From: Limnanthes douglasii subsp. nivea
Taxonomy: Eukaryota > Streptophyta > Magnoliopsida > Brassicales > Limnanthaceae
DNA: 64,000 nt
Reading direction: 5' to 3'
NCBI GenBank assembly: GCA_036936605.1
Contig: JAUPFV010000001.1
Coordinates: forward strand, 247,688,925 to 247,752,924
This document shows positions 8,871 through 53,458 of the stretch, one piece after another (the stretch's first letter is position 1; each line of letters begins with the position of its first letter). The position numbers and the translations under genes were made by a program. Under the pieces are notes generated by a model, which searched no databases, had not been told where the DNA came from, and was given only the letters and a program-made list of their open reading frames with translations.

Positions 8871-9144
8871 ATTATATAGTCCAAAATTTTAAATATTACT
8901 TATGTTATTATCACATTTTGAATATTATTATTATTATGTTTTTAGATCTAATATTAGTAGTGTTGATTTTAATATTACAAACCAAAACGATATCTTATCA
9001 TGTTAAAATATTACATTTTATATTTTATTACTATGATTTGGTTTTAAATATTACAAGTGTTTGTTATTATTTTTTAAACCAAAATCATATTTTATCATGC
9101 AAAAATATTACAAGTTATATTTATTATTTTTAATATGAGATTTT

Positions 9145-9500
9145 GAATTTTATTATTGTGATTAGGTTTTAAATATTACAAGTGTTATTTATTATTTTTA
9201 AGTTATATTGTTATAATTTTAATATTACATTTTGAATTTTATTATTGTGATTAGGTTTTAAATATTACAAGTGTTATTTATTATTTTTAAGTTATATTGT
9301 TATAATTTTAATATTACATTTTGAATTTTATTATTGTGATTTGGTTTTAAATATAACAAGTGTTATTTATTATTTTTAAGTTATATTGTTATAATTTTAA
9401 TATTACATTTTGAATTTTATTATTGTGATTTGGTTTTAAATATTACAAATGTTATTGATTATTTTTTAAACCAAAATCATATTTTATCATGCTAAAATAT
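9145..9500. repeat. 89-bp AT-rich tandem repeat
   Basis: GAATTTTATTATTGTGATT recurs at 9145, 9234, 9323 and 9412, an exact 89-bp period with very few differences between units. It is non-coding and lies within the hAT element downstream of its ORF. Confidence 0.9.
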
Positions 9501-9640
9501 TACAAGTTATATTAAAATATTTAATATTACAAATTCTAAAATATTACAAGTCATATTAAAATATTTAATATTACAAATGCTAAAATATTACAAGTTATAT
9601 TAAAATATTTAATATTACAATTGCTAAAATACATTTTTTA
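9492..9640. repeat. 44-bp AT-rich tandem repeat
   Basis: CTAAAATATTACAAG recurs at 9492, 9536 and 9580, with a partial unit at 9624, a 44-bp period. It directly follows the 89-bp array. Each unit contains ATTAAAATATTTAAT, a near-palindrome. Confidence 0.85.
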
Positions 9641-41248: not shown

Positions 41249-41841
41249 ATTAATTATATGTCAACAGTTTCAGAATTGGAAGAGAAAAGAATTGCAGAAA
41301 ATGCTGCAAAATTCTTCGTTTTCGACATTAAAACAACTTTTAATTTTACACAACCGAATAATGTCTCACAATCTACTGGTGTTATGTCTCTCCCTCAAAA
41401 TAATGTCCAATCTGGTTATAAACCAACTGGTATTGACTTGCATCTAAATAGCATGGTCAAATTGGTGGTTGATGGTTGTTCTTCAGATACAAGGATTTAA
41501 CTTGTTCATAGTCATATCAACCTAGAGGGGTATAAGCCAGCCTCCCTGTCTAGTTGTAGTATTTAAGATAACATAAATGACCCGAATTTATTAAACCTAG
41601 ACGAGCAGGTTTTGGTTGTTCATGAGGATACTGATGCAGCAGTAGCTGCTAATTCTATTGTAACATAATCACTTGAAAGTATTAAACCTATGACATTCAA
41701 CTCTGTACGACAAGAAGAAGCTTGTAGAGGTGAATGTGGATGGATTTGAGGAGCAATATTCACAAATCCATAGAAAAAAAATCCTTTGCAATTGAGGATG
41801 ATGGTTGCAAATGTTGCAAATGCAAGAAGACAAGCCGCTTG
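41249..41841 (+). pseudogene. CPP segment 1: N-terminal part to start of first CXC
   Basis: The frame to 41500 includes VSELEEKRIAENAAKFFVFD and KPTGIDLHLNSMVK, the latter matching the conserved GIGLHLN-type motif of CPP proteins. After a stop, weaker coding continues (VVHEDTDAAVAANSIV near 41620). The start of CXC1, DGCKCCKCKKTSR, ends at the Copia-6 junction. Confidence 0.78.
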
Positions 41842-42517
41842 TGTTGGAATATATTTATTTAATATATTTATAGACTAATAATAATTTGGACCGATATGCT
41901 AAATAAACATATTCAGTTATTGTCTTAAGGAAGTCCAAATTAAAAGTAGTCGAGTTAATTATTTAATTAACTAAATTGGACTTATGGGTAAAAAGGCGTT
42001 ATGGGCTCAAGTGTGGTAACCGGGTTGAATTTGGGCACTGTGATGAAGAGGGCCCAAATCTCAACACTTAAGCCTGAATTAATAAATCAGGGATATAAAT
42101 TGAATTATCAATTTATTGGGTTATGGTCCCGGACACAAGGAAGTAACATAGGATGGGCTTTACAATGTTGGGCTTCACATTGTAAAATCTATAAATAAGG
42201 GGCTAGGTTTAGGTATTTCATCACTCTAAACCCTAATCAGAAATACGGCCGCTTCCTTAGTGTCTGGAAACCTTTTCCTTCTTCTCTAACCTGATTCTAC
42301 AGGTCTCTTAGTTTCATAAACGGAATCGCCAGAGAACGTGGAATCGCTAAAGAACGCAAAAGAACGCTAGAGAATACTAGATGGATAGCAGCAGGCAAAC
42401 CCGTAAGTATTCTTAATTTTTGTTTCTTCTATAGATGAATCTAACAAAAAGGGTTTTATTATTATTTTCCGCGATTTGTTATATATTATCTGATGCGATT
42501 TCGGATTATATATAACA
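41842..42517 (+). mobile_element. Copia-6 5' LTR (676 bp)
   Basis: It begins TGTTGGAATATATTT and ends TATATATAACA. TATA box TATAAATAA at 42190-42198, about 340 bases from the primer site. The first 65-codon frame inside it is repeated exactly in the other LTR and is not a gene. Confidence 0.96.
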
Positions 42518-42519
42518 AT

Positions 42520-42532
42520 TGGTATCAGAGCC
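42520..42532 (+). other. Copia-6 primer-binding site
   Basis: TGGTATCAGAGCC, complementary to the 3' end of initiator tRNA-Met, two bases after the LTR. Confidence 0.95.
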
Positions 42533-42919
42533 AAATAAACCCTTTTTGGATTCAGTAGAATAATCAAATTGAGATAGACAAAGATGCATATTTTTCTTAA
42601 TCGTAAAGAATCCATGTCATTGGGATTATGTGTTAATTGAATTGGTAGGGCATGGATTTAGGGATTGTATGAAAAGCATGTTATGTGATTTATTGAAATT
42701 GCAATTTTTATAGTTTGGGGATTTTTTTTTTATTTCGGGTAAAATTAGGGTTTATTGATGTCTGGAATTTTTCTCCCAAAATTAGCATCAAATCAACCCT
42801 AAAATAACGAATAAAATCAAAATTATTGGGACAGTGGCTCATCGACAGCTTAACCCCTGATGTTAACGCTGATCGAAGACTGTCCGCTGATTATCACGGT
42901 AACCGAAAAAAAAAAAAAA

Positions 42920-43071
42920 AAAAACTGCTGCAGCAATTTGCAGCTCGTTAGAAATTGCAGGGGCCTGCTGGAAATTATAGCAGGGACCTACTGCAATTTC
43001 AACAAGGGTCTGCTGAAAATTACAGCAGGGGCCCGCTGGAAATAACAGCAGGTGTCTGCACTGCACTGCTG

Positions 43072-43118
<47 letters not shown>
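42920..43118 (+). repeat. Copia-6 leader: CAGCAG-type hairpin repeats and T33A11 tract
   Basis: Three or more degenerate units form small hairpins. At 42964-42984 CCTGCT faces AGCAGG, at 43010-43028 CTGCTG faces CAGCAG, and at about 43033-43051 CCGCTG faces CAGCAGG. A run of 33 T followed by 11 A (43075-43118) comes next and could itself form a hairpin. Confidence 0.8.
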
Positions 43119-43309
43119 TTATTTATTTTTTATTTTTTCGAAAGTACATATTTTGTTCGGAAATATATATATTGTATGTAAATTATTTCACAAGTATGTT
43201 GTGTTTGGCATGCAATTTTTTTTGTTTGTTTATTTGTGAATTAAATTGTGTGTGTGAATGATTAAATGACGATGCATGATTAAGGTTTCGTAGACCGGTA
43301 GGTGAAACT

Positions 43310-43790
43310 AAGAAATTAATTTAATCGGCCCTCCGGAAGGTTAAAATTAATTTTCTTAAGGATCCTAGGCTTCGAAAAGTTCGGGGATTAATTTAAATTC
43401 AAATATTATCGGCCCTCCGGAAGGTTCACGTTTGGGTTTAAATTAATCATGAACGGGAGAAAATTATTGAAAATGGTCTTGGTGCTGATTTTAATTTTAA
43501 TTAGATGAAATCGGCCCTCCGGAAGGTTTCATCGGTAGTTAAGATAAATTAAATTCAGCCTTACAATTTTTTGATTTTAAGTAGGTGAAATCGGCCCTCC
43601 GGAAGGTTTCATCGGTACTTAAGAAAATCAAATTATGGTTATTTTAATATATGTAAATGACATCGGCCCTCCGGAAGGTCTCATTGGCAATTAGAAAATT
43701 AAAATAATGATCATAGTATTTTTCTCAAACTCATAAAATTTCATGTTAATTTGATTTGCCCTCCGGTATCTATTATCAATGAATTTTATG
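43310..43790 (+). repeat. Copia-6 leader: array of six capped stem-loops
   Basis: The 17-mer TCGGCCCTCCGGAAGGT occurs at 43325, 43409, 43511, 43591 and 43663, and a decayed form (TTGCCCTCCGGTA) at about 43757. Each copy sits at the tip of an inverted repeat whose arms differ from hairpin to hairpin: AAGAAATTAATTTAA/TTAAAATTAATTTTCTT (43310-43357), GATTAATTTAAA/TTTAAATTAATC (43386-43448), GCTGA...GATGAAA/TTTCATC...TCAGC (43484-43559), TTGATTTTAAGTA-type (43565-43635), TTATTTTAAT/ATTAAAATAA (43638-43710), CATAAAATT/AATTTTATG (43732-43790). The array ends 95 bases before the gag ATG. Confidence 0.9.
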
Positions 43791-43848
43791 TTTTACATGT
43801 ATTTGTCATGTTTATGCACATGTTTTCAGTTATATGTCAAAATGCTAG

Positions 43849-44626
43849 ATGTGCTTTGTGTTGTTTGTTCCTATTATAGTATCCATGGGTTACAATTTTT
43901 TGGGGAATCGTCCACCGACGTTGGATTGTTCGGACTTCCAATTGTGGAAGGAAGAAATGTTGCTGTTTTTATCTGTACATGATTACGACTATGCATTGTT
44001 AACTCCCAAACCATCTCCCCTTAGTCCGGAAAGTACACCGGATGAAACTAAGGCTGATGAAAAGTGGGAAAGGTCAAATAAGTTATGCATGGCGCTCTTG
44101 TTACAGGGAATAGCAGTAGCATTGCGTGGGGATGTCCCTAAAGGTGTTACCACTGCCTCGGTCTTTCTCACGGAGATTGAGAAAGCCTTTGCCAAAAAAA
44201 AAAAAAATAAAAATAAAAATGAAAAGGTAGAGATGCAGCGTTTGCTCATCGAGCTAGCTACCAAAAAGTATAATGGCAAAGGTAAAATCCGGGAGCACAT
44301 TCTGGGAATGTTGATGATTGGCCAAAAGTTAAAAGGCAATCGGTTTAGACTTACCTGAGGAATGCATAGTGGGATTCATATTTCATTCGCTGCCAGACCG
44401 GTTTAAGTATTTCCAATCCACCTATAACTGCATGCGAGAAAAGTGGAATATCAATGAGTTGATTTCCCACGCTGCACAGGAGGAGGAAAGACTTAAAGGC
44501 ACAGCGCTTGAGGCTAATGTGATTACATCACCAAATAAGGCAGGACCTAAGCGGAAGGCATATGGCAAAGGACCGGGTCAAGGTTTGGTCAACAAGAAAG
44601 GTATAAGGCCCTGGATAAGTTCATAA
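43849..44626 (+). pseudogene. Copia-6 gag, frameshifted and 3'-truncated
   Basis: The likely start is ATG at 43885 (MGYNFLGNRPPTLDCSDFQL). The conserved gag core follows: KWERSNKLCMALLLQGIAVAL, the KVEMQRLLIELATKKYNGKG stretch, then after a frameshift near 44350 GFIFHSLPDRFKYFQSTYNC and KWNINELISHAAQEEERLKG. An A-rich run (44195-44220) in the middle encodes Lys/Asn repeats and may be an expansion. After about 44605 the sequence passes directly into integrase, with zinc knuckle and protease missing. Gag would build the RNA-packaging shell. Confidence 0.88.
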
Positions 44627-45290
44627 CAATTAAGACCGAGGTTGAGAAACAACTTGGTAAAAGCATTAAGACCGTTAGATCTGACCGTGGTGGTGAATAC
44701 TATGGTAGATATGACGGATCGGGTGAACAACGTCCAGGTTCCTTTGCACAGTACCTAGAGAAGTGTGGAATAGTTCCTCAATACACTATGCCTGGTTCAC
44801 CTCGCATGAACGGTGTATCTGAGAGACGGAACTGAACACTAAAAGATATGGTTAGAAGCATGATAAGTCACTCATCTCTACCATTATCTCTCTGGGGGAA
44901 GCCATCAAATGTGCCGCTTATATACTCAATCGAGTACCCACAAAGGCTACTGTTAGGACTCCATATGAGCTTTGGAACGGGGGTAAACCTAATTTAAAGC
45001 ATCTGCATGAGTGGGGTTGTCCAGCTGAGGCGAGGCCTTACAAACCTCAAGAAAAGAAACTGGACCCAAAAACAGTTAGTTGTTTCTTCATAGGTTATTC
45101 CGAACATTCTAGAGGGTTTAAGTTTTATGATTCTCTCACTGGTACAATATTTGAGACAAGAACGGCCAAGTTTCTAGAGGATGTTGAGTTTGGGGGGAAG
45201 AATAAGGAAACACATGTTGATTTTGAGGAAGAATCCATAAAGATTCATGAAGGTTTTAATAGGGATACTGAGATATTTGAAGATTGGGCG
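44605..45290 (+). pseudogene. Copia-6 integrase, N-terminally deleted
   Basis: Plus-strand reading starts inside the catalytic core: KFITIKTEVEKQLGKSIKTV, RSDRGGEYYGRYDG, then YTMPGSPRMNGVSERRN, an in-frame TGA, TLKDMVRSMISHSSLPLSLW, and the C-terminal region GCPAEARPYKP, VSCFFIGYSEHSRGFKFY. The zinc motif and first catalytic aspartate region are absent, as is all of protease. The deletion joins this to gag at about 44605-44620. Confidence 0.88.
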
Positions 45291-45293
45291 GTA

Positions 45294-46730
45294 ATGCCAA
45301 TCATTTCGATCCCATTAGAACAAGGTAATCCTCAGATTAACACTGATGCTCCACTTGAGGGTTCTAACCAGGATACAGAGATTCAGGTAGAACAAGAGGA
45401 ACCTCAAGATAATCTTCCACAAGGGAATCAAAATGACATCGTTCATAATGATCAAACTCTACCTCCTCAAGAAGTGCAACAGGAGGAAATAGTGCCATTA
45501 AGAAGGTCCACTAGAGAAAGGAAGAGTACTATAGGTCCAGAATTTATAGTATATCTTCAGGAGCATGATGAGTTATGTGCTGGAACTGTAGATGATCCCT
45601 CATCCTACAAACAGGCCATGGCAAGCTCTGAATCTCAAAAGTGGATTGACGCTATGAAAGAAGAGTATAAATCAATGCAGGATAATGCGGTATGGGATCT
45701 TGTCCCATTACCTGAAGGGAAAAAGGCAATTGGTTGTAAATGGGTTTACAAAACCAAACACGATTCCCTGGGTAATGTGGAAAGACATAAAGCACGTCTT
45801 GTAGCGAAAGGTTATACTCAGCGTGAAGGGATTGATTTTAAAGAAACTTTCGCTCCAGTATCGACGAAGGATTCCTTTAGAACAATCATGGCATTAGTTG
45901 CATAGTTTGACCTTGAGCTTCATCAGATGGATGTTAAGACCGCTTTTCTCAATGGTAATATTGAGGAAACGATCTACATGATGCAACCAGAAAACTTTAT
46001 AGAAAGTAACTCAAAAGATCTGGTTTGCAGACTTAAGAAATCCATTTATGGGCTTAAACAAGCTTCTTGTCAATGGTATCACAAATTCCTTGAGGTGATA
46101 GTCGGTTATGACTTTGAGATCAACTCGGTTGAGGATTGTGTTTATCACAATTTCAGTGGGAGTAATTTCATATTTCTTATATTATATGTGGATGACATAT
46201 TGCTTGCCTCGAACAATAAGGAATTGTTACACACTACAAAAAGATTTCTATCAGACAAGTTTGATATGAAGGATCTTGGTGATGCCAGTTTTGTGTTAGG
46301 AATCCAGATACATCGAGATCGTTCTCGTGGTATTCTTGGATTATCACAAAAAGCATACATTAAAAGTGTGTTACAACGTTACGGATTGGCAGATTGCAAA
46401 CCCCTAAGTACCCCTATAGCAAAGGGTGACAGACTTAGTCTGAGTCAATGTCCTAAGACAAAACTGGAGATTGAGGAAATGAAAACGGTCCCTTATGCTT
46501 CTGCAGTTGGGAGTTTAATGTATGCTCAAGTTTGTACTAGGCTGGACATTGTCTTTGCTGTAAACATGTTAGGGAGATATGTTAGTAACCCAGGAATGGA
46601 TTACTGGAAAGCAGTTAAAAGAGTACTCCAATATCTGCAAGGAACAAAGGGGCACATGTTGACATATAGGAAGTCGGATAAACTGGAGATCATCGGGTAT
46701 TCCGACTCAGATTTTGGTGGATGCGCAGAC
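45294..46730 (+). pseudogene. Copia-6 reverse transcriptase
   Basis: Two in-phase frames (45294-45905 and 45927-46796) are separated only by a TAG at 45903-45905. Motifs: IGCKWVYKTKHDSLGNVERH, ETFAPVSTKDSFRTIMAL, MDVKTAFLNGNIEETIYMMQ, SIYGLKQASCQWYHKF, LYVDDILLASNN with the catalytic aspartates, and AVGSLMYAQVCTRLDIVFAV. The stretch before 45600 is the acidic linker after integrase. Apart from the one stop the RT is complete and close to family consensus. Confidence 0.92.
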
Positions 46731-47170
46731 ACATTAAAAGTATGTCAGGCAACATATTCTTATTGGCTGGAGGTGCAATATCCTGGAAAAGTGTAAAGCA
46801 AACACTTATTGCATCGTCCACCATGGAAGCAGAATTTGTTGCATGCTTTAAGGCATCAAACCAGGCACTATGGCTGCGGAATTTTGTTACTGGATTACGC
46901 ATTGTATAAGGGATAGAAATCCCTATGAGGTTATATTGCGATAACAATTCCGCAGTGCAGTACTCTGACATCAACAGGAGCGCATCTAAATCCAAACACA
47001 TAGACATAAAGTTTCTGTCTGTTAAAGAAAGAGTACAGATGGGTCAGATAAGTATAGAGCACATCAGTACAAACTCCATGATAGCAGATCCTCTAACAAA
47101 GGCGGTTTTGCCTAAGGTTTTCCAGGGACACACCATCAGTATGGGTGTAGTTGATTTAGAGGATTTTTAG
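46721..47170 (+). pseudogene. Copia-6 RNase H
   Basis: After a frameshift near 46730 the RNase H continues: SDSDFGGC just before it, then [36 protein letters not shown], a TAA at 46907, RLYCDNNSAVQYS, KSKHIDIKFLSVKERVQMGQ, ISIEHISTNSMIADPLTKAV. It ends at 47170 (VVDLEDF), and 385 bases of non-coding follow before the polypurine tract. Confidence 0.9.
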
Positions 47171-47554
47171 TTTCAGTGGGAGAGTTTGTAATAGGATCTG
47201 ATGTTGTATTTTGCAGTATTGTGCACATTAAAGTTTATTGCAATATATATGCTTGGAAATATTTATTGATATCTGTACTGTATTGGATCTCCAAAAGTAG
47301 GAACCATTTAAGAGTAGATATGTACGATTACAAGCCATATTACTCTTAGACCACCCTCCATAATTGGCCCAAGTAATTGATTGATTATGGTAATGTGATT
47401 ACTGTTGCATCCTATTGTTCACATTACGAGAAAGAGGTCTTTAGTCCTTTATTATTATCAATCATGTACGGGGTTGTACCGTTTGCCCATTGACAATGAA
47501 TATAGGGATCCCATTAAAGTTGAATATGTATTCTTGAGTAGCATATGACGGTCC

Positions 47555-47565
47555 AAGTGGGAGAT
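47555..47565 (+). other. Copia-6 polypurine tract
   Basis: AAGTGGGAGAT directly precedes TGTTGG of the 3' LTR and would prime plus-strand DNA synthesis. Confidence 0.88.
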
Positions 47566-48241
47566 TGTTGGAATATATTTATTTAATATATTTATAGACT
47601 AATAATAATTTGGACCGATATGCTAAATAAACATATTCAGTTATTGTCTTAAGGAAGTCCAAATTAAAAGTAGTCGAGTTAATTATTTAATTAACTAAAT
47701 TGGACTTATGGGTAAAAAGGCGTTATGGGCTCAAGTGTGGTAACCGGGTTGAATTTGGGCACTGTGATGAAGAGGGCCCAAATCTCAACACTTAAGCCTG
47801 AATTAATAAATCAGGGATATAAATTGAATTATCAATTTATTGGGTTATGGTCCCGGACACAAGGAAGTAACATAGGATGGGCTTTACAATGTTGGGCTTC
47901 ACATTGTAAAATCTATAAATAAGGGGCTAGGTTTAGGTATTTCATCACTCTAAACCCTAATCAGAAATACGGCCGCTTCCTTAGTGTCTGGAAACCTTTT
48001 CCTTCTTCTCTAACCTGATTCTACAGGTCTCTTAGTTTCATAAACGGAATCGCCAGAGAACGTGGAATCGCTAAAGAACGCAAAAGAACGCTAGAGAATA
48101 CTAGATGGATAGCAGCAGGCAAACCCGTAAGTATTCTTAATTTTTGTTTCTTCTATAGATGAATCTAACAAAAAGGGTTTTATTATTATTTTCCGCGATT
48201 TGTTATATATTATCTGATGCGATTTCGGATTATATATAACA
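47566..48241 (+). mobile_element. Copia-6 3' LTR (676 bp)
   Basis: Constant 5724-base offset from the 5' LTR with no indel seen and no substitution noticed on reading. Followed by the TSD copy GCTTG. Confidence 0.95.
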
Positions 48242-48295
48242 GCTTGAAGCTCTACAAGCCGCTTGAAGCTCTACAATGAATGTTTTGTTGCTAGT
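48242..48295 (+). pseudogene. CPP segment 2: middle of first CXC
   Basis: After the Copia-6 TSD the host reads CGCTTGAAGCTCTACAATG and on, giving LKLYNECFVAS, the centre of CXC1. A 19-bp tandem duplication (GCTTGAAGCTCTACAAGCC) precedes it. The frame ends at the next insertion near 48296 and resumes at 54500 with GIILCVSPCSCQE, with no residue obviously missing. Confidence 0.8.
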
Positions 48296-48967: not shown

Positions 48968-50245
48968 ATGGCTAATGATGTAGATTTCCCACTTCTAAAT
49001 GGTAAAGCTGATTTGTCTACTAACAATAAAGATGGTGACTCCAAAAGATCATATTTGGATGTAGTTATAAAGAAAGATAGGTTCGCGGAATTCAGCCCTG
49101 AATGCGTGTTGAAGTTTGATGTCCTCAATATCATCAAGTTTGATGTAAAGGTTAAGTCTGATCTATGTGCAAAATCAAGAACAACTCTTGTTGTAAAGTT
49201 CAAGGAAGGGATTCCGAAAAAACAGGTGTTTCAAGAATTTCTTGACTCATTTAAATTTAAAGGTGCATTTACGTACACAACAGTGGATTCTAGACAAATT
49301 CTGGTTGAATTTGCGGTGTTAGAAGACGCGGGCAGATTGTGGATCAGGCGTTTTTGGAAGGTCGATGGTAGAATGTGTAGGGTGGTCAAGTGGTGCCCTC
49401 AAAGTTCAAGAAACTTTGAATGTCCAGAAGCATTATTGTGGGTTAGGTTTGAAAAAGTACCAGAATACATGTATAACAGCTCTGTTATACATGCGCTGGC
49501 TTCATCTTTGGGGCTAGTACATCATGTTGTTATCCCTGAAATCAATAGAGCGAGTTGGAATGCTTGCTTCGCTTTGGTCGAGATAGATGTATCAAGAATA
49601 CTAAAAAGAAAGGTAAAAGCTGTGTTTGGGGAAGATGCAGTCTATATTGCTGTTAGCTATAAAAACCCTCCTGGGTACTGTAAATCTTGCAATCACATAG
49701 GCCATGAGGTGGATAATTGTAATAAGACAAAGTCTAAGGATGAAAAGAAGGCAACTGATAGTAATGATATTACTGAAAGGAAGCATAGTAGTCAAGAAAA
49801 CATTCAAGTTTCTGAAAACTGTACAAATACAACTAAGTCTACAAAGATTCTTCCTTTTACTCATGTGTATAGGAGGAAGTTAAAATCGATTGTTACAAAG
49901 AAGGACATGCCTAATTCTAGTGTGTCTTGTCCAGCTACGTGTGTGGGGAGTCCTATGAAGAACAATTATACTAAGAATGACACTGATATTATCAGTGCTC
50001 TTCAAAACTTGGAGGAAGAAGAGAACTGCGGTGACAACTTACAGGCTTCTCCTCGAGCTGGAATGGCTGGCAGCTACAATGCTTCTCCAAGATTAAGCAC
50101 AAATGAACCTGAAAATGAATTTGAGACAGTTATTTCAAGAAGAGTTAAATCTGCTAACAGGATTGTTAATGCAAGAAGACTGTCAATTAACTCTCTAAAC
50201 AAGAGAGAAAAAGGTCAAAATCATTCATTATCTGATAATGATTAA
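48968..50245 (+). CDS. LINE-1 ORF1 protein (DUF4283 domain and CCHC knuckle)
   Basis: 425 residues and intact. Residues about 65-205 form the DUF4283-type domain usual in plant LINE ORF1 proteins (TTLVVKFKEGIPKKQVFQEF, then LLWVRFEKVPEYMYN). A CCHC zinc knuckle follows at residues 238-251 (CKSCNHIGHEVDNC, spacing C-x2-C-x4-H-x4-C). The C-terminal 170 residues are Ser/Lys/Asn-rich and probably disordered. The protein would bind element RNA. Start ATG lies 173 bp after the element's 5' end. The stop overlaps the ORF2 start by 8 bases. Confidence 0.9.
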   Translation: MANDVDFPLLNGKADLSTNNKDGDSKRSYLDVVIKKDRFAEFSPECVLKFDVLNIIKFDVKVKSDLCAKSRTTLVVKFKEGIPKKQVFQEFLDSFKFKGAFTYTTVDSRQILVEFAVLEDAGRLWIRRFWKVDGRMCRVVKWCPQSSRNFECPEALLWVRFEKVPEYMYNSSVIHALASSLGLVHHVVIPEINRASWNACFALVEIDVSRILKRKVKAVFGEDAVYIAVSYKNPPGYCKSCNHIGHEVDNCNKTKSKDEKKATDSNDITERKHSSQENIQVSENCTNTTKSTKILPFTHVYRRKLKSIVTKKDMPNSSVSCPATCVGSPMKNNYTKNDTDIISALQNLEEEENCGDNLQASPRAGMAGSYNASPRLSTNEPENEFETVISRRVKSANRIVNARRLSINSLNKREKGQNHSLSDND

Positions 50246-50864
50246 ATTTTTAAGCTGGAATGCAAGAGGAGTTCACAACAACCCTACAATTGCTAGGCTA
50301 AAGTACATCATCAATAGTGAGAAGATTAAATTGCTTGCAATACAAGAACCTATGGCCAGGTCTGACAAGGTGGAATTGGTGGCTAGAAGACTTGGGTTTG
50401 AGAACTACATGGTTAACTCTTCTAATAAAGTCTGGTTGTTTTGGCCAAATGATATTAGTATAGTTTTGGCTATGGACCAAGAACAGTTTATGCATGTTCA
50501 AATAAATTTTGGTAGTTTTACTTGTTTTTTAACTTCTGTGTACGCTAAAAATTTAAGATTGCAGAGACAAGAGCTTTGGAGACAGCTGAGATCAATTACC
50601 TGTGAAAGCCCTTGGATATTGGCAGGGGATTTCAACACTTCAAGGTGTCCTGATGACCAACTACACTGTGTAAACTATGACAGTGCTAGTGTGGAGGATT
50701 TCAATCAGTTCATCAATGATTGCAATTTAGAGGATCCTGGCTTCATTGGATCTCGCTATACCTGGAGCAATAATAACAACTGGAAGAGGTTAGACTGGGT
50801 ATTAGTCAATCAGAATATGCTTAATAATTTAAGCATACAGGTTTGTCACATGGAATTGTTTTAG
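50238..50864 (+). pseudogene. LINE-1 ORF2, endonuclease part (C-terminally deleted)
   Basis: 208 codons from ATG at 50238. It has APE-type endonuclease motifs: FLSWNARG, LLAIQEP with the catalytic glutamate, ILAGDFNTSRC and NNNWKRLDWVLVNQ. The final SDHSPL motif, present in LINE-2, is missing because sequence is deleted at about 50840 and the frame shifts to a stop at 50864. The enzyme would nick target DNA to start reverse transcription. This copy lacks a catalytic histidine block. Confidence 0.9.
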
Positions 50865-53458
50865 TGCCTAAAATAGCTAATCCTACTACATGGAATAACT
50901 ATAGGCCATTAAGCATGTGCACAATATTGAACAGATTAATTTCTGCTCTTATAAACAGAAGAATATCATGTTTACTTCCTAGAATCATCTCTAGAGGTCA
51001 AAGTGCCTTCGTGAAAGAAAGGCTAATACATGACAATATATTAATCATTAAAGAGATGTTGCATCATATAAGAAGAAAGCCTTCAAAAGGCAACATTATT
51101 ATTCAACTTGACATGACAAAGGCGTTTGACAGAATGTCACACGCCTTTATCATTAATGTTCTAAAGTGTTTTGGTTTTTCTGAGCATATGACTACTTTAA
51201 TTTACAGTATGATTTCTAAAGTAATGGTATCTGTTCTTATAAATGGGTCTAGTGAAGGATATTTTCCTCAAAACTCTGGTTTGAGACAAGGAGATCCTTT
51301 ATCTCCTTGTCTTTTCATTTTGGCAGAGGAAGCATTGCTAAGAGGATTAGAAAATTTATACATTGCTAATCCTAACATGCAGTTCTACATAAAGTCAGGG
51401 TTTGTTTTACCTTGTATTGCTTTTGCAGATGACATTGTGGTATTTACCAACAGCACTCCTTCAGCAATTAAAGAACTAAGTAACCTGCTCAATAAATACC
51501 AAGTGGAGTCTGGTCAGATGATCAATGTTGATAAGACAAAAGTAATTACATCTTCAAGGTGTACTAGTGCAATGGCTGCTAGTATAAATGCAACTATGGG
51601 ATTCAGAACAGAGTCTGCTCCATTCAATTATCTAGGGACTACAATTGCAGCAAATAATAAGGGAGTTCATTTCACTTCACTCTTAGCTAAACTTTATAAT
51701 AAAATAAATGAGTGGGACTTGAAGAATCTGTCTTATAGTGGCAGGCTGTCACTTATAAGACATGTTCTTCACCCAATCATATATTTCAGAATGCAAAATA
51801 GCATAATACCAAAGAATGTTCTAAATAAAATTGCTCTCTGTTTTAATAAGTTTTTATGGAGGGCTAAAGTGAATGAGCCTGCCATTCATTGGTCTGAGTG
51901 GGGTGGTCTCTGTAAGCCATTTGTGGAGGGTGGACTAAACATTAAAACCCTACCAGACATTCAACTTGCATTTGCTTACAAGTTATGGTTTTATTTCAGA
52001 AGAGGAAAGTCACTTTGGACTGACCTATTACATAAGACTTATTGTGTAGACAGGCACCCTCTTAGTGCTAAATGTAGTATTGGGGATTCTACTGTTTGGA
52101 AGGGTTTATGTTCAATAAGGGATAAGGCAGACCAATACATTCACTGGAATGTGGGTTGTGGTAATGTAGATTTTTGGAGGGACTCTTGGCACAGGATGAC
52201 ACCTATAGTTACTAATCATCATAATTCTTGGTATTTACCAGCAAAGTTAAATACGTTTTGGAAAAATGGTTCATGGGATTTAAATTCAATAGCCTTCCTT
52301 TCTGATGACAGAAAACAACACATTCAATGTGTTAAAGTCTGTCATGAAAAGGAAGATCTTATTGAATGGAGTCTCACAAATAACAAAAAGTTTTGCACTA
52401 AAAAAACATGGGAAATGATCAGAATTAAAAATAATTTTTCTTTCTTTTACAAAAAAACATGGCATAGCTTTATTCCATCTAAGATATCATTTCTTTGCTG
52501 GAGACTACTTAAGAATTATATGCCTACTGATGACATCCTTGCCAAGAGACATTTCACTATGGTATCTAAATGCCAGTTTTGTTCCTCTTGTGAGGACCTA
52601 AATCATCTATTCATAAACTGTTCTTTTTCATGGCAATTATGGAATTACTACGGACTCATGTTTAGAATTCCAGTTAGGAGATTCATGACAGTCAGACACA
52701 TGCTATTCATTTGGTTTAAATCAAGTTGCAATAAGTTCCATATTACCCAAATTGTTCCACAATTGATTATTTGGACAATTTGGGTAAACAGGAACCACTG
52801 CAAATTCGATAAACCATATGATAACTTAAGCAGAGCTATAAACAGAGTGAATATGTTGATAATGGGAATTGATTTCAAACTGAAACCTAAACACTGGACT
52901 AATGTGGTGGATGCAGGTGCAATGCTAGGGGTTCTATCTATAAGCTCTAAGAAAGTCACTTACCGGTCTTGGAGGGCACCAGCACCAGGAAGATTCAAGG
53001 TCAACACAGATGGAGCGTGTAGCTCCACCGGTGAGGCTTCAGGAGGATTCATCGTGCGCGATCACTTGGGGAACTGTATCATATGGGCTAGCTATTTGTT
53101 TGGAAAATTAAGTCCCCTGCAAGCAGAAAGAAGAGCAATCGTTAATGCGCTCTTGGAATGTAACAGACGAGATTGGAGATATACTGACCTGGAATCGGAC
53201 TGTTTGGCCTTGATATGTTGCATAAATTCTGCTGAATCGTCTCACGTTGCCGGTATCGACATTTGCAAGTCGTTGATTGGTCCTAACATGAAAGTCGGCC
53301 ACATTTCCAGATCGGAAAATGTGGCGGCTGACTGGGTTTCTAGATATGCTTTGGTGGAAAATAGAAATCAGGTTGGGGATGGAAGTGATATGCCTAATCA
53401 GCTTCGAGCTATTGTTGTTCTCGATAGCATTGGAGTCGGTTACCTAGATCCTGGCTAG
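50843..53458 (+). pseudogene. LINE-1 ORF2, RT to RNase H part
   Basis: Open for 871 codons but in a different frame from the endonuclease. RT motifs: IVLVPKIANPTTWNNYRPLS, IIIQLDMTKAFDRMS (motif A, residue D90), NSGLRQGDPLSPCLF (motif B, about 145-158), FADD (194-197). Then a zf-RVT zinc region (CQFCSSCEDLNHLFINC) and a C-terminal RNase H-like domain (FKVNTDGACSSTGEASGGF, ESDCLALI). The catalytic core is intact. The missing part is the linker before RT, about 850 bases judged by LINE-2. Confidence 0.92.

Follow-up and report, generated by a model that had tools for sequence, protein, structure and literature searches.

What could be the function of six predicted hairpins that present one common tip on different stems, in the leader of a plant Copia retrotransposon? 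The array was noticed in a sequence-only reading of the window, that is, the whole stretch of 64,000 nt analysed here (Limnanthes douglasii subsp. nivea, contig JAUPFV010000001.1, positions 247,688,925 to 247,752,924; coordinates below are window positions). In general kind it would belong with the cis-acting RNA signals already known from leaders of LTR retroelements. Its carrier, at 41842-48241, is a recent Copia-type LTR retrotransposon whose protein genes are broken, and its main features are as follows.

41837 to 41841, plus strand: target-site duplication GCTTG, read from the sequence and repeated at 48242-48246
41842 to 42517, plus strand: 5' LTR, 676 bp, the same as the 3' LTR (self-BLAST, 100% over 676 bp)
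42190 to 42197, plus strand: TATAAATA, read from the sequence, which we take to be the TATA box
42520 to 42532, plus strand: TGGTATCAGAGCC, read from the sequence, presumably the primer binding site (PBS), also kept in a second family of the same genome (family B)
45294 to 46796, plus strand: reverse transcriptase (PF07727), split over two frames and protein-defective
47566 to 48241, plus strand: 3' LTR (self-BLAST)

The LTRs, the GCTTG duplication and the reverse transcriptase bear out the earlier assignment of the leader to a Copia element. In a profile search of the window, two frames match the Copia-type reverse transcriptase profile PF07727, one at 7e-21 and the other at 1e-45. For Copia-type gag (PF14223) there is a weak match, at E 2e-4 and 21.2 bits, under the curated cut-off of 27, and the closest gag protein match is one Impatiens relative at 39%. 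Relatives of the reverse transcriptase reach up to 73% identity (best 120 of 7899), with named records from Drosera, Gossypium and Rhodiola among these 120; no relative was found in viral contigs searched with the reverse transcriptase. Because the LTRs are identical yet the protein genes are broken, the window copy was recently mobilised, presumably in trans: it would be a recently inserted, trans-packaged parasite. Directly downstream, 48968-53458 holds a LINE-like element, in which a DUF4283 ORF is followed by an ORF with RVT_1, zf-RVT and RVT_3, and a tandem repeat block with units 77-95% alike occupies 8909-9631. The Copia leader itself contains, upstream of the hairpins at 42925-43065, GC-rich tandem units that are partly palindromic, gcaggggcctgctggaaatta-like and flanked by an A-run and a T-run.

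The six inverted repeats span 43309-43790, each with a cap at its own tip:

43309 to 43358, plus strand: hairpin 1 (A1), cap 43324-43341
43386 to 43448, plus strand: hairpin 2 (A2), cap 43408-43425
43485 to 43558, plus strand: hairpin 3 (A3), cap 43510-43527
43570 to 43632, plus strand: hairpin 4 (A4), cap 43590-43607, missing in arrays of three caps plus terminal hairpin (3+1)
43636 to 43710, plus strand: hairpin 5 (A5), cap 43662-43679
43732 to 43790, plus strand: terminal hairpin 6 (A6), variant cap TTTGCCCTCCGGTATCT at 43755-43771, kept in family B

Five of the caps contain the 17-mer TCGGCCCTCCGGAAGGT exactly (43325, 43409, 43511, 43591 and 43663), and these are its sole matches in the window at up to three mismatches (chance expectation 0.02). 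The conserved unit is in fact an 18-mer, ATCGGCCCTCCGGAAGGT, a stretch that coincides with the predicted folded tip. For hairpins 1-5 this tip is predicted to be the same throughout: the pairs A-U, U.G and C-G, a GG/AA 2x2 internal loop, two C-G pairs and a CUCC loop; more generally, the predicted tip ends in a CNNN tetraloop beyond the two C-G pairs. The RNA of 43300-43800 folds at -131.5 kcal/mol, against -107.6 +/- 6.0 in 100 shuffles (z -3.98; none of the 100 as good). When the cap is held fixed and the arms are shuffled, single hairpins score z -0.5 (A1), -5.2 (A2), -4.4 (A3), -3.2 (A4), -2.1 (A5) and -1.6 (A6): A2-A4 are strong and A5 modest, and A1, A6 and hairpin B3 of family B are singly not significant. 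Sites and folds thus confirm that five exact caps stand at the tips of different inverted repeats. Rfam 15 has no match in the window at gathering score, and the best sub-threshold match on 43200-43900 has E 2.5. Viral contigs contain two single matches to the 17-mer, treated as chance; in bacterial genomes it occurs in at least 116 stretches, with one match each in all 80 listed.

The 1.78 Gb assembly holds 2185 exact 17-mers, compared with none in the reversed control. The matches listed form 41 clusters, of which 40 were fetched, all on contig C1, and one was left out because its spacings resembled a duplicate of its neighbour. The resulting alignment of the window's own family (family A) has 39 rows, the window included, with L149 and L181 omitted as not spanning the array. 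The layout is long in 25 copies (five caps plus terminal hairpin, 5+1) and short in 14 (3+1). The sixth hairpin, earlier described as a decayed copy, turns out to be a fixed variant: 25 of the 39 aligned copies share an identical 20-base core, and the same array-ending variant, TTGCCC...GGTATCT, is common to families A and B. Cap and arms change at nearly the same rate in the 12 most diverged copies (0.103 and 0.105 changes per site), as expected of dead copies; the corresponding values are 0.032 and 0.040 in 15 intermediate copies and 0.010 and 0.015 in the 11 youngest. When the window is compared with six long-frame copies, the cap (0/54) and the terminal core (0/17) are unchanged, with 6/173 changes in the arms (6/170 in one) and 13/95 in the linkers (12/91 in one); these numbers are small, and the difference between cap and arms alone is not significant.

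Array size goes together with coding state. Where the reverse transcriptase is part of an open frame of 1392 aa, all 13 arrays examined have the 3+1 layout (L158, L177, L185, L219-L224, L256-L259). Among copies with shorter frames, in which the array lies closer to the reverse transcriptase, 12 of 13 are 5+1 (the window, L157, L159, L171, L178, L183, L254, L255, L260-L263) and one, L170, is 3+1. As this is a convenience sample of copies related by descent, the relation of hairpin number to coding state is a correlation only. In a midpoint-rooted tree of the leaders, the seven copies that branch deepest all have the six-hairpin layout except L150, so the four-hairpin layout of the long-frame copies may be a loss. 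No claim is made that hairpins were newly amplified in the parasite copy, the deep branches being mostly six-hairpin already. The third-hairpin string of four-hairpin arrays occurs at 208 places with up to one mismatch, an impure set that also takes in the six-hairpin L152.

Whether the differing arms belong to their own partners can be judged from chimeras of all 5' and 3' arms, compared by total energy. Among the 720 arm arrangements of the six window hairpins, only the real one attains the observed total; with ten hairpins from both families, none of 100,000 random re-pairings equals it. Taken singly the arms are less choosy: in the ten-hairpin table, seven of ten 5' arms fit no 3' arm better than their own, and five of ten 3' arms fit no 5' arm better than their own. 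Hairpins 3 and 4 are close duplicates, and by eye their three differing aligned stem pairs all stay paired, two having changed on both sides and one having become G.U. The outer stems of A2 (GATTAAT/ATTAATC) and B1 (GATTGAC/GTTAATC), also compared by eye, differ by A-T to G.T and T-A to C-G. The claim that arms differ between hairpins while remaining complementary within each therefore agrees with the re-pairing tests, both between hairpins and between the two families.

Within families the picture differs. Against a null of same-letter re-pairing, pairing is kept at 0.468 versus 0.458 in family A and 0.578 versus 0.553 in family B (L232 and L246, which have an extra unit, omitted), with no excess in either; 176 of 500 and 81 of 500 nulls, respectively, reach the observed value over all variants. 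Double changes that preserve pairing number 10 in A, where the null mean is 9.2 (210/500 reach it), and 9 in B, where it is 2.0 (82/500). Pairs are even lost through some subfamily-wide changes, as in A3 at 43501/43538 (T-C, 16 copies) and in A6 at 43741/43781 (G-G, 21 copies). Dead copies dilute this test, and its outcome is still negative. The earlier suggestion that the stems are selected for pairing only thus finds no backing in the related leaders, and the case for stem pairing rests on the comparisons between hairpins and between families.

The second family gives the clearest view of which parts of the leader are retained. Family B was found via the cotton reverse transcriptase P0009, to which it is 75% identical, with long open frames; the window's reverse transcriptase is 69% identical to the same protein. 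In the family B leader L225, AATCGGCCCAAAGGAAGTTT and AATCGGCCCAAAGGAAGATT tip two different hairpins and CTTGCCCAAAGGTATCT stands at the end. All five long-frame copies of family B examined have two caps and the terminal hairpin (2+1), one cap with one mismatch. The B tip retains AUCGGCC-C...GGAAG, with the loop CAAA in place of the CUCC of A, and the folding energy of the stretch has z -2.0, a level that 4 of 100 shuffles also reach. The genome has 979 occurrences of the pattern ATCGGCCC-VNN-GGAAG, and the reversed control 7. For other loop variants of the tip there are 68 places, versus 6 in the reversed control; no two of the 68 form a pair about 70-120 bases apart. When the predicted intron of A (below) is compared with that of B by plus-strand blastn, four matches have E <= 0.007: one at the PBS and one at the terminal hairpin (6e-4 each), one between the first cap hairpins of the two families (0.002) and one in low-complexity AT (0.007). 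Otherwise the B leader is mostly unrecognisable beside the A leader. On this comparison the tip scaffold, the terminal hairpin and the PBS are what survive most clearly, with loop and arms changed. The recurrence of tip and terminal hairpin in family B supports the view, already put forward from the window, of an RNA-level signal presented several times.

The family evidence spans two families in one genome; the queries P0046 and P0114, aimed at third families, led to A and B or to copies in the same identity range. In many B copies (L227-L245) hairpin 2 has both a longer 5' A-run and a longer 3' T-run than in L225, exceptions including L243. At 458-607, upstream of its cap hairpins, L225 also has the 30-nt unit TAACTGTTAGCCTAAAAAGTAGG... 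five times over, and several of these units contain a short inverted repeat. The terminal-hairpin search further yielded L247, which by eye resembles an old, decayed relative of B, and L248, which by eye resembles a chance match. The genome also has tens of copies of a tip-like string, ATCGGCCTCGGGGAAG, no two of which stand close together among the matches listed. Two family B copies, L232 and L246, carry an additional cap-hairpin unit, a hint that in this family, too, arrays grow through unit duplication.

The position of the array within the leader is informative in its own right. Its 3' end lies 95 bases upstream of the in-frame gag ATG at 43885, as had been noted from the sequence; that distance is correct for this ATG, whereas the gag start itself is more probably in the LTR. 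We predict the following arrangement.

42381 to 42402, plus strand: predicted gag coding exon 1, ATGGATAGCAGCAGGCAAACCC, from the first ATG at least 30 nt past the presumed TATA box
42403 to 43879, plus strand: predicted phase-1 intron of 1477 nt, GTAAGT...TATAG, holding the PBS and all six hairpins
43880 to 44358, plus strand: predicted exon 2, gag, with the in-frame ATG 43885, running to its own stop

In family A, the ATG at 42381 lies within the LTR and GTAAGT follows 22 nt on. In family B, the first ATG at least 25 nt past the TATA stretch is also within the LTR, with GTAAGT 13 nt on; an ATG overlapping the end of the TATA stretch is skipped by the 25-nt limit, the transcript start being assumed. 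Joined to TATAG in A and to GTTAG in B before gag, both are in frame and in phase 1 (MDSSRQTLSMGYNF... and MSTSSNSYFYNP..., respectively). The in-frame join is open for at least 140 codons in A, the other two joins closing after 47 and 40; in B it is open for at least 80 codons and the others close after 4 and 4. Counting both strands and the LTRs, the window has 2522 ATGs, and 15 of them are followed by GTAAGT within 30 nt. Of 39 A copies, 35 have an intact acceptor AG, which lies 89 nt downstream of the hairpins; the donor is intact in both A copies covered and in L253. No copy of the A splice junction was found in the 1.78 Gb genome at up to two mismatches, which would fit spliced RNA that is not reverse-transcribed and, equally, no splicing. 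Gag translation is thus predicted to start in the LTR, the leader of 1477 nt being spliced out; hairpins and PBS would then be present only in unspliced genomic RNA. The sequence-only reading had noticed neither this predicted intron, nor that the terminal hairpin is conserved, nor that long-frame and truncated copies differ in how many hairpins they carry.

With the hairpins placed in the predicted intron of the gag leader, the array may quite possibly be a modular packaging signal, one that lets Gag select the unspliced genomic RNA of the Copia element, and this is the reading that we tentatively favour. Gag, or its nucleocapsid part, would read the GG/AA-loop tip, and several weak sites would sum up in its recognition, which would leave the number of hairpins free and the tip fixed. 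The many equal tips also suggest cooperative binding of several Gag molecules. Spliced RNA, having neither PBS nor hairpins, would serve only as Gag mRNA; the unspliced RNA alone would carry both the PBS and the tags and be packaged. Copies with no functional protein genes, such as the one in the window, could still be packaged in trans. A wider proposition, possible though somewhat doubtful, is that of a Copia lineage in which the gag start is hidden in the LTR, the leader is spliced out and the intron holds countable, interchangeable packaging tags, each tag being a hairpin whose stem is free to vary but whose GG/AA-loop tip is fixed; the larger set in truncated parasites would lead to competition by tag number.

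The main rival to a packaging signal is an element for export or intron retention, in which a host protein binds the GG/AA-loop tips so that unspliced RNA leaves the nucleus or escapes splicing. The location of the hairpins in the predicted intron, 89 nt upstream of the acceptor, suits such a role, and a constant tip scaffold with a free loop is what a host reader would be expected to require. The IAP RTE and MusD MTE are described as working in this manner in the accessible part of PMC12786077. The text consulted offers no plant Copia example, and sequence does not tell an export element and a packaging signal apart. We regard the export role as unlikely, if less so than the readings that follow.

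It is improbable that the array is a feature of the DNA or a by-product, either a set of protein-binding repeats or inverted repeats that template switching in reverse transcription created and perfected, with no role as RNA. The ease with which units duplicate and contract (L232 and L246; the 3+1 and 5+1 classes) agrees with such an origin, as does the lack of excess compensation within families, but it leaves unexplained why PBS, tip and terminal hairpin survive between two leaders, and why order and position before gag are conserved.

More improbable again is control of gag translation on the unspliced RNA, by an IRES, a shunt or repression. Between the predicted donor and acceptor of A lie 35 ATGs (31 in B), which make plain scanning to 43885 on unspliced RNA unlikely and would call for some such device; the need is removed in both families by the predicted start codon in the LTR and the in-frame splice. 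Kissing-loop dimerisation through the cap, proposed from the sequence alone, is very improbable: TCCGGA is self-complementary in A and an octaloop exposing it occurs among the suboptimal folds, but the best fold pairs its GG with the CC preceding the loop, and the one B cap hairpin tested keeps the scaffold with CAAA for CUCC and lacks the 6-base palindrome, so that dimerisation is ruled out as a function common to A and B.

How the favoured packaging signal relates to known systems can be judged from the accessible portions of the literature. In HIV-1 the psi hairpin is flanked by the major splice donor on one side and gag on the other, and the psi of MoMuLV includes the tandem hairpin SL-C/SL-D (PMC7599994). 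As in retroviral psi, more than one hairpin stands here in the gag leader past a splice donor (in our case predicted), and hence would be in unspliced RNA only (PMC7599994). Unlike psi, the array comprises five or six units of variable number with one 18-nt tip, this tip combines a GG/AA internal loop with a tetraloop of free sequence, the predicted donor is in the LTR ahead of the PBS, and Gag binding is a proposal from sequence. The genomic RNA of Ty1 has the dimerisation palindromes PAL1/PAL2 and a 5' pseudoknot, and thus likewise cis-acting RNA elements in a Copia-superfamily leader (PMC9503155); in contrast with PAL1/PAL2, the palindrome here is not conserved and the stems of the array differ.

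In the barley BARE1/BARE2 system, the protein-defective Copia relative, BARE2, is packaged in trans; dimerisation and packaging signals are conserved, and the Gag mRNA is spliced (PMC3735527). The window copy resembles BARE2 in having no working proteins and in its proposed packaging in trans. BARE1 splices out 104 nt inside gag, whereas here the whole leader is predicted to be spliced out and gag to start in the LTR; the accessible text on BARE1 and BARE2 mentions no hairpin array (PMC3735527). The MusD MTE and IAP RTE are structured cis elements for unspliced full-length RNA (PMC12786077); the structure here differs from theirs, as far as that account goes, and an export role in our case would be a proposal from sequence. 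Titles and the opening parts of abstracts in the openly licensed literature describe neither a hairpin array in a plant Copia element nor a leader intron with a gag start in the LTR.

How plant LTR retrotransposons select their own unspliced RNA is little known, the main cases in the literature covered here being BARE and, in yeast, Ty1. A short, countable tag that outlives the rest of the leader would provide a defined motif for the binding of Gag or of a host protein, and would allow packaging competence to be read from sequence. If the wider proposition is true, truncated copies, with more tags than the long-frame copies on which they depend, would compete with these for particles, and truncated and long-frame copies that differ in tag number would constitute a natural experiment.
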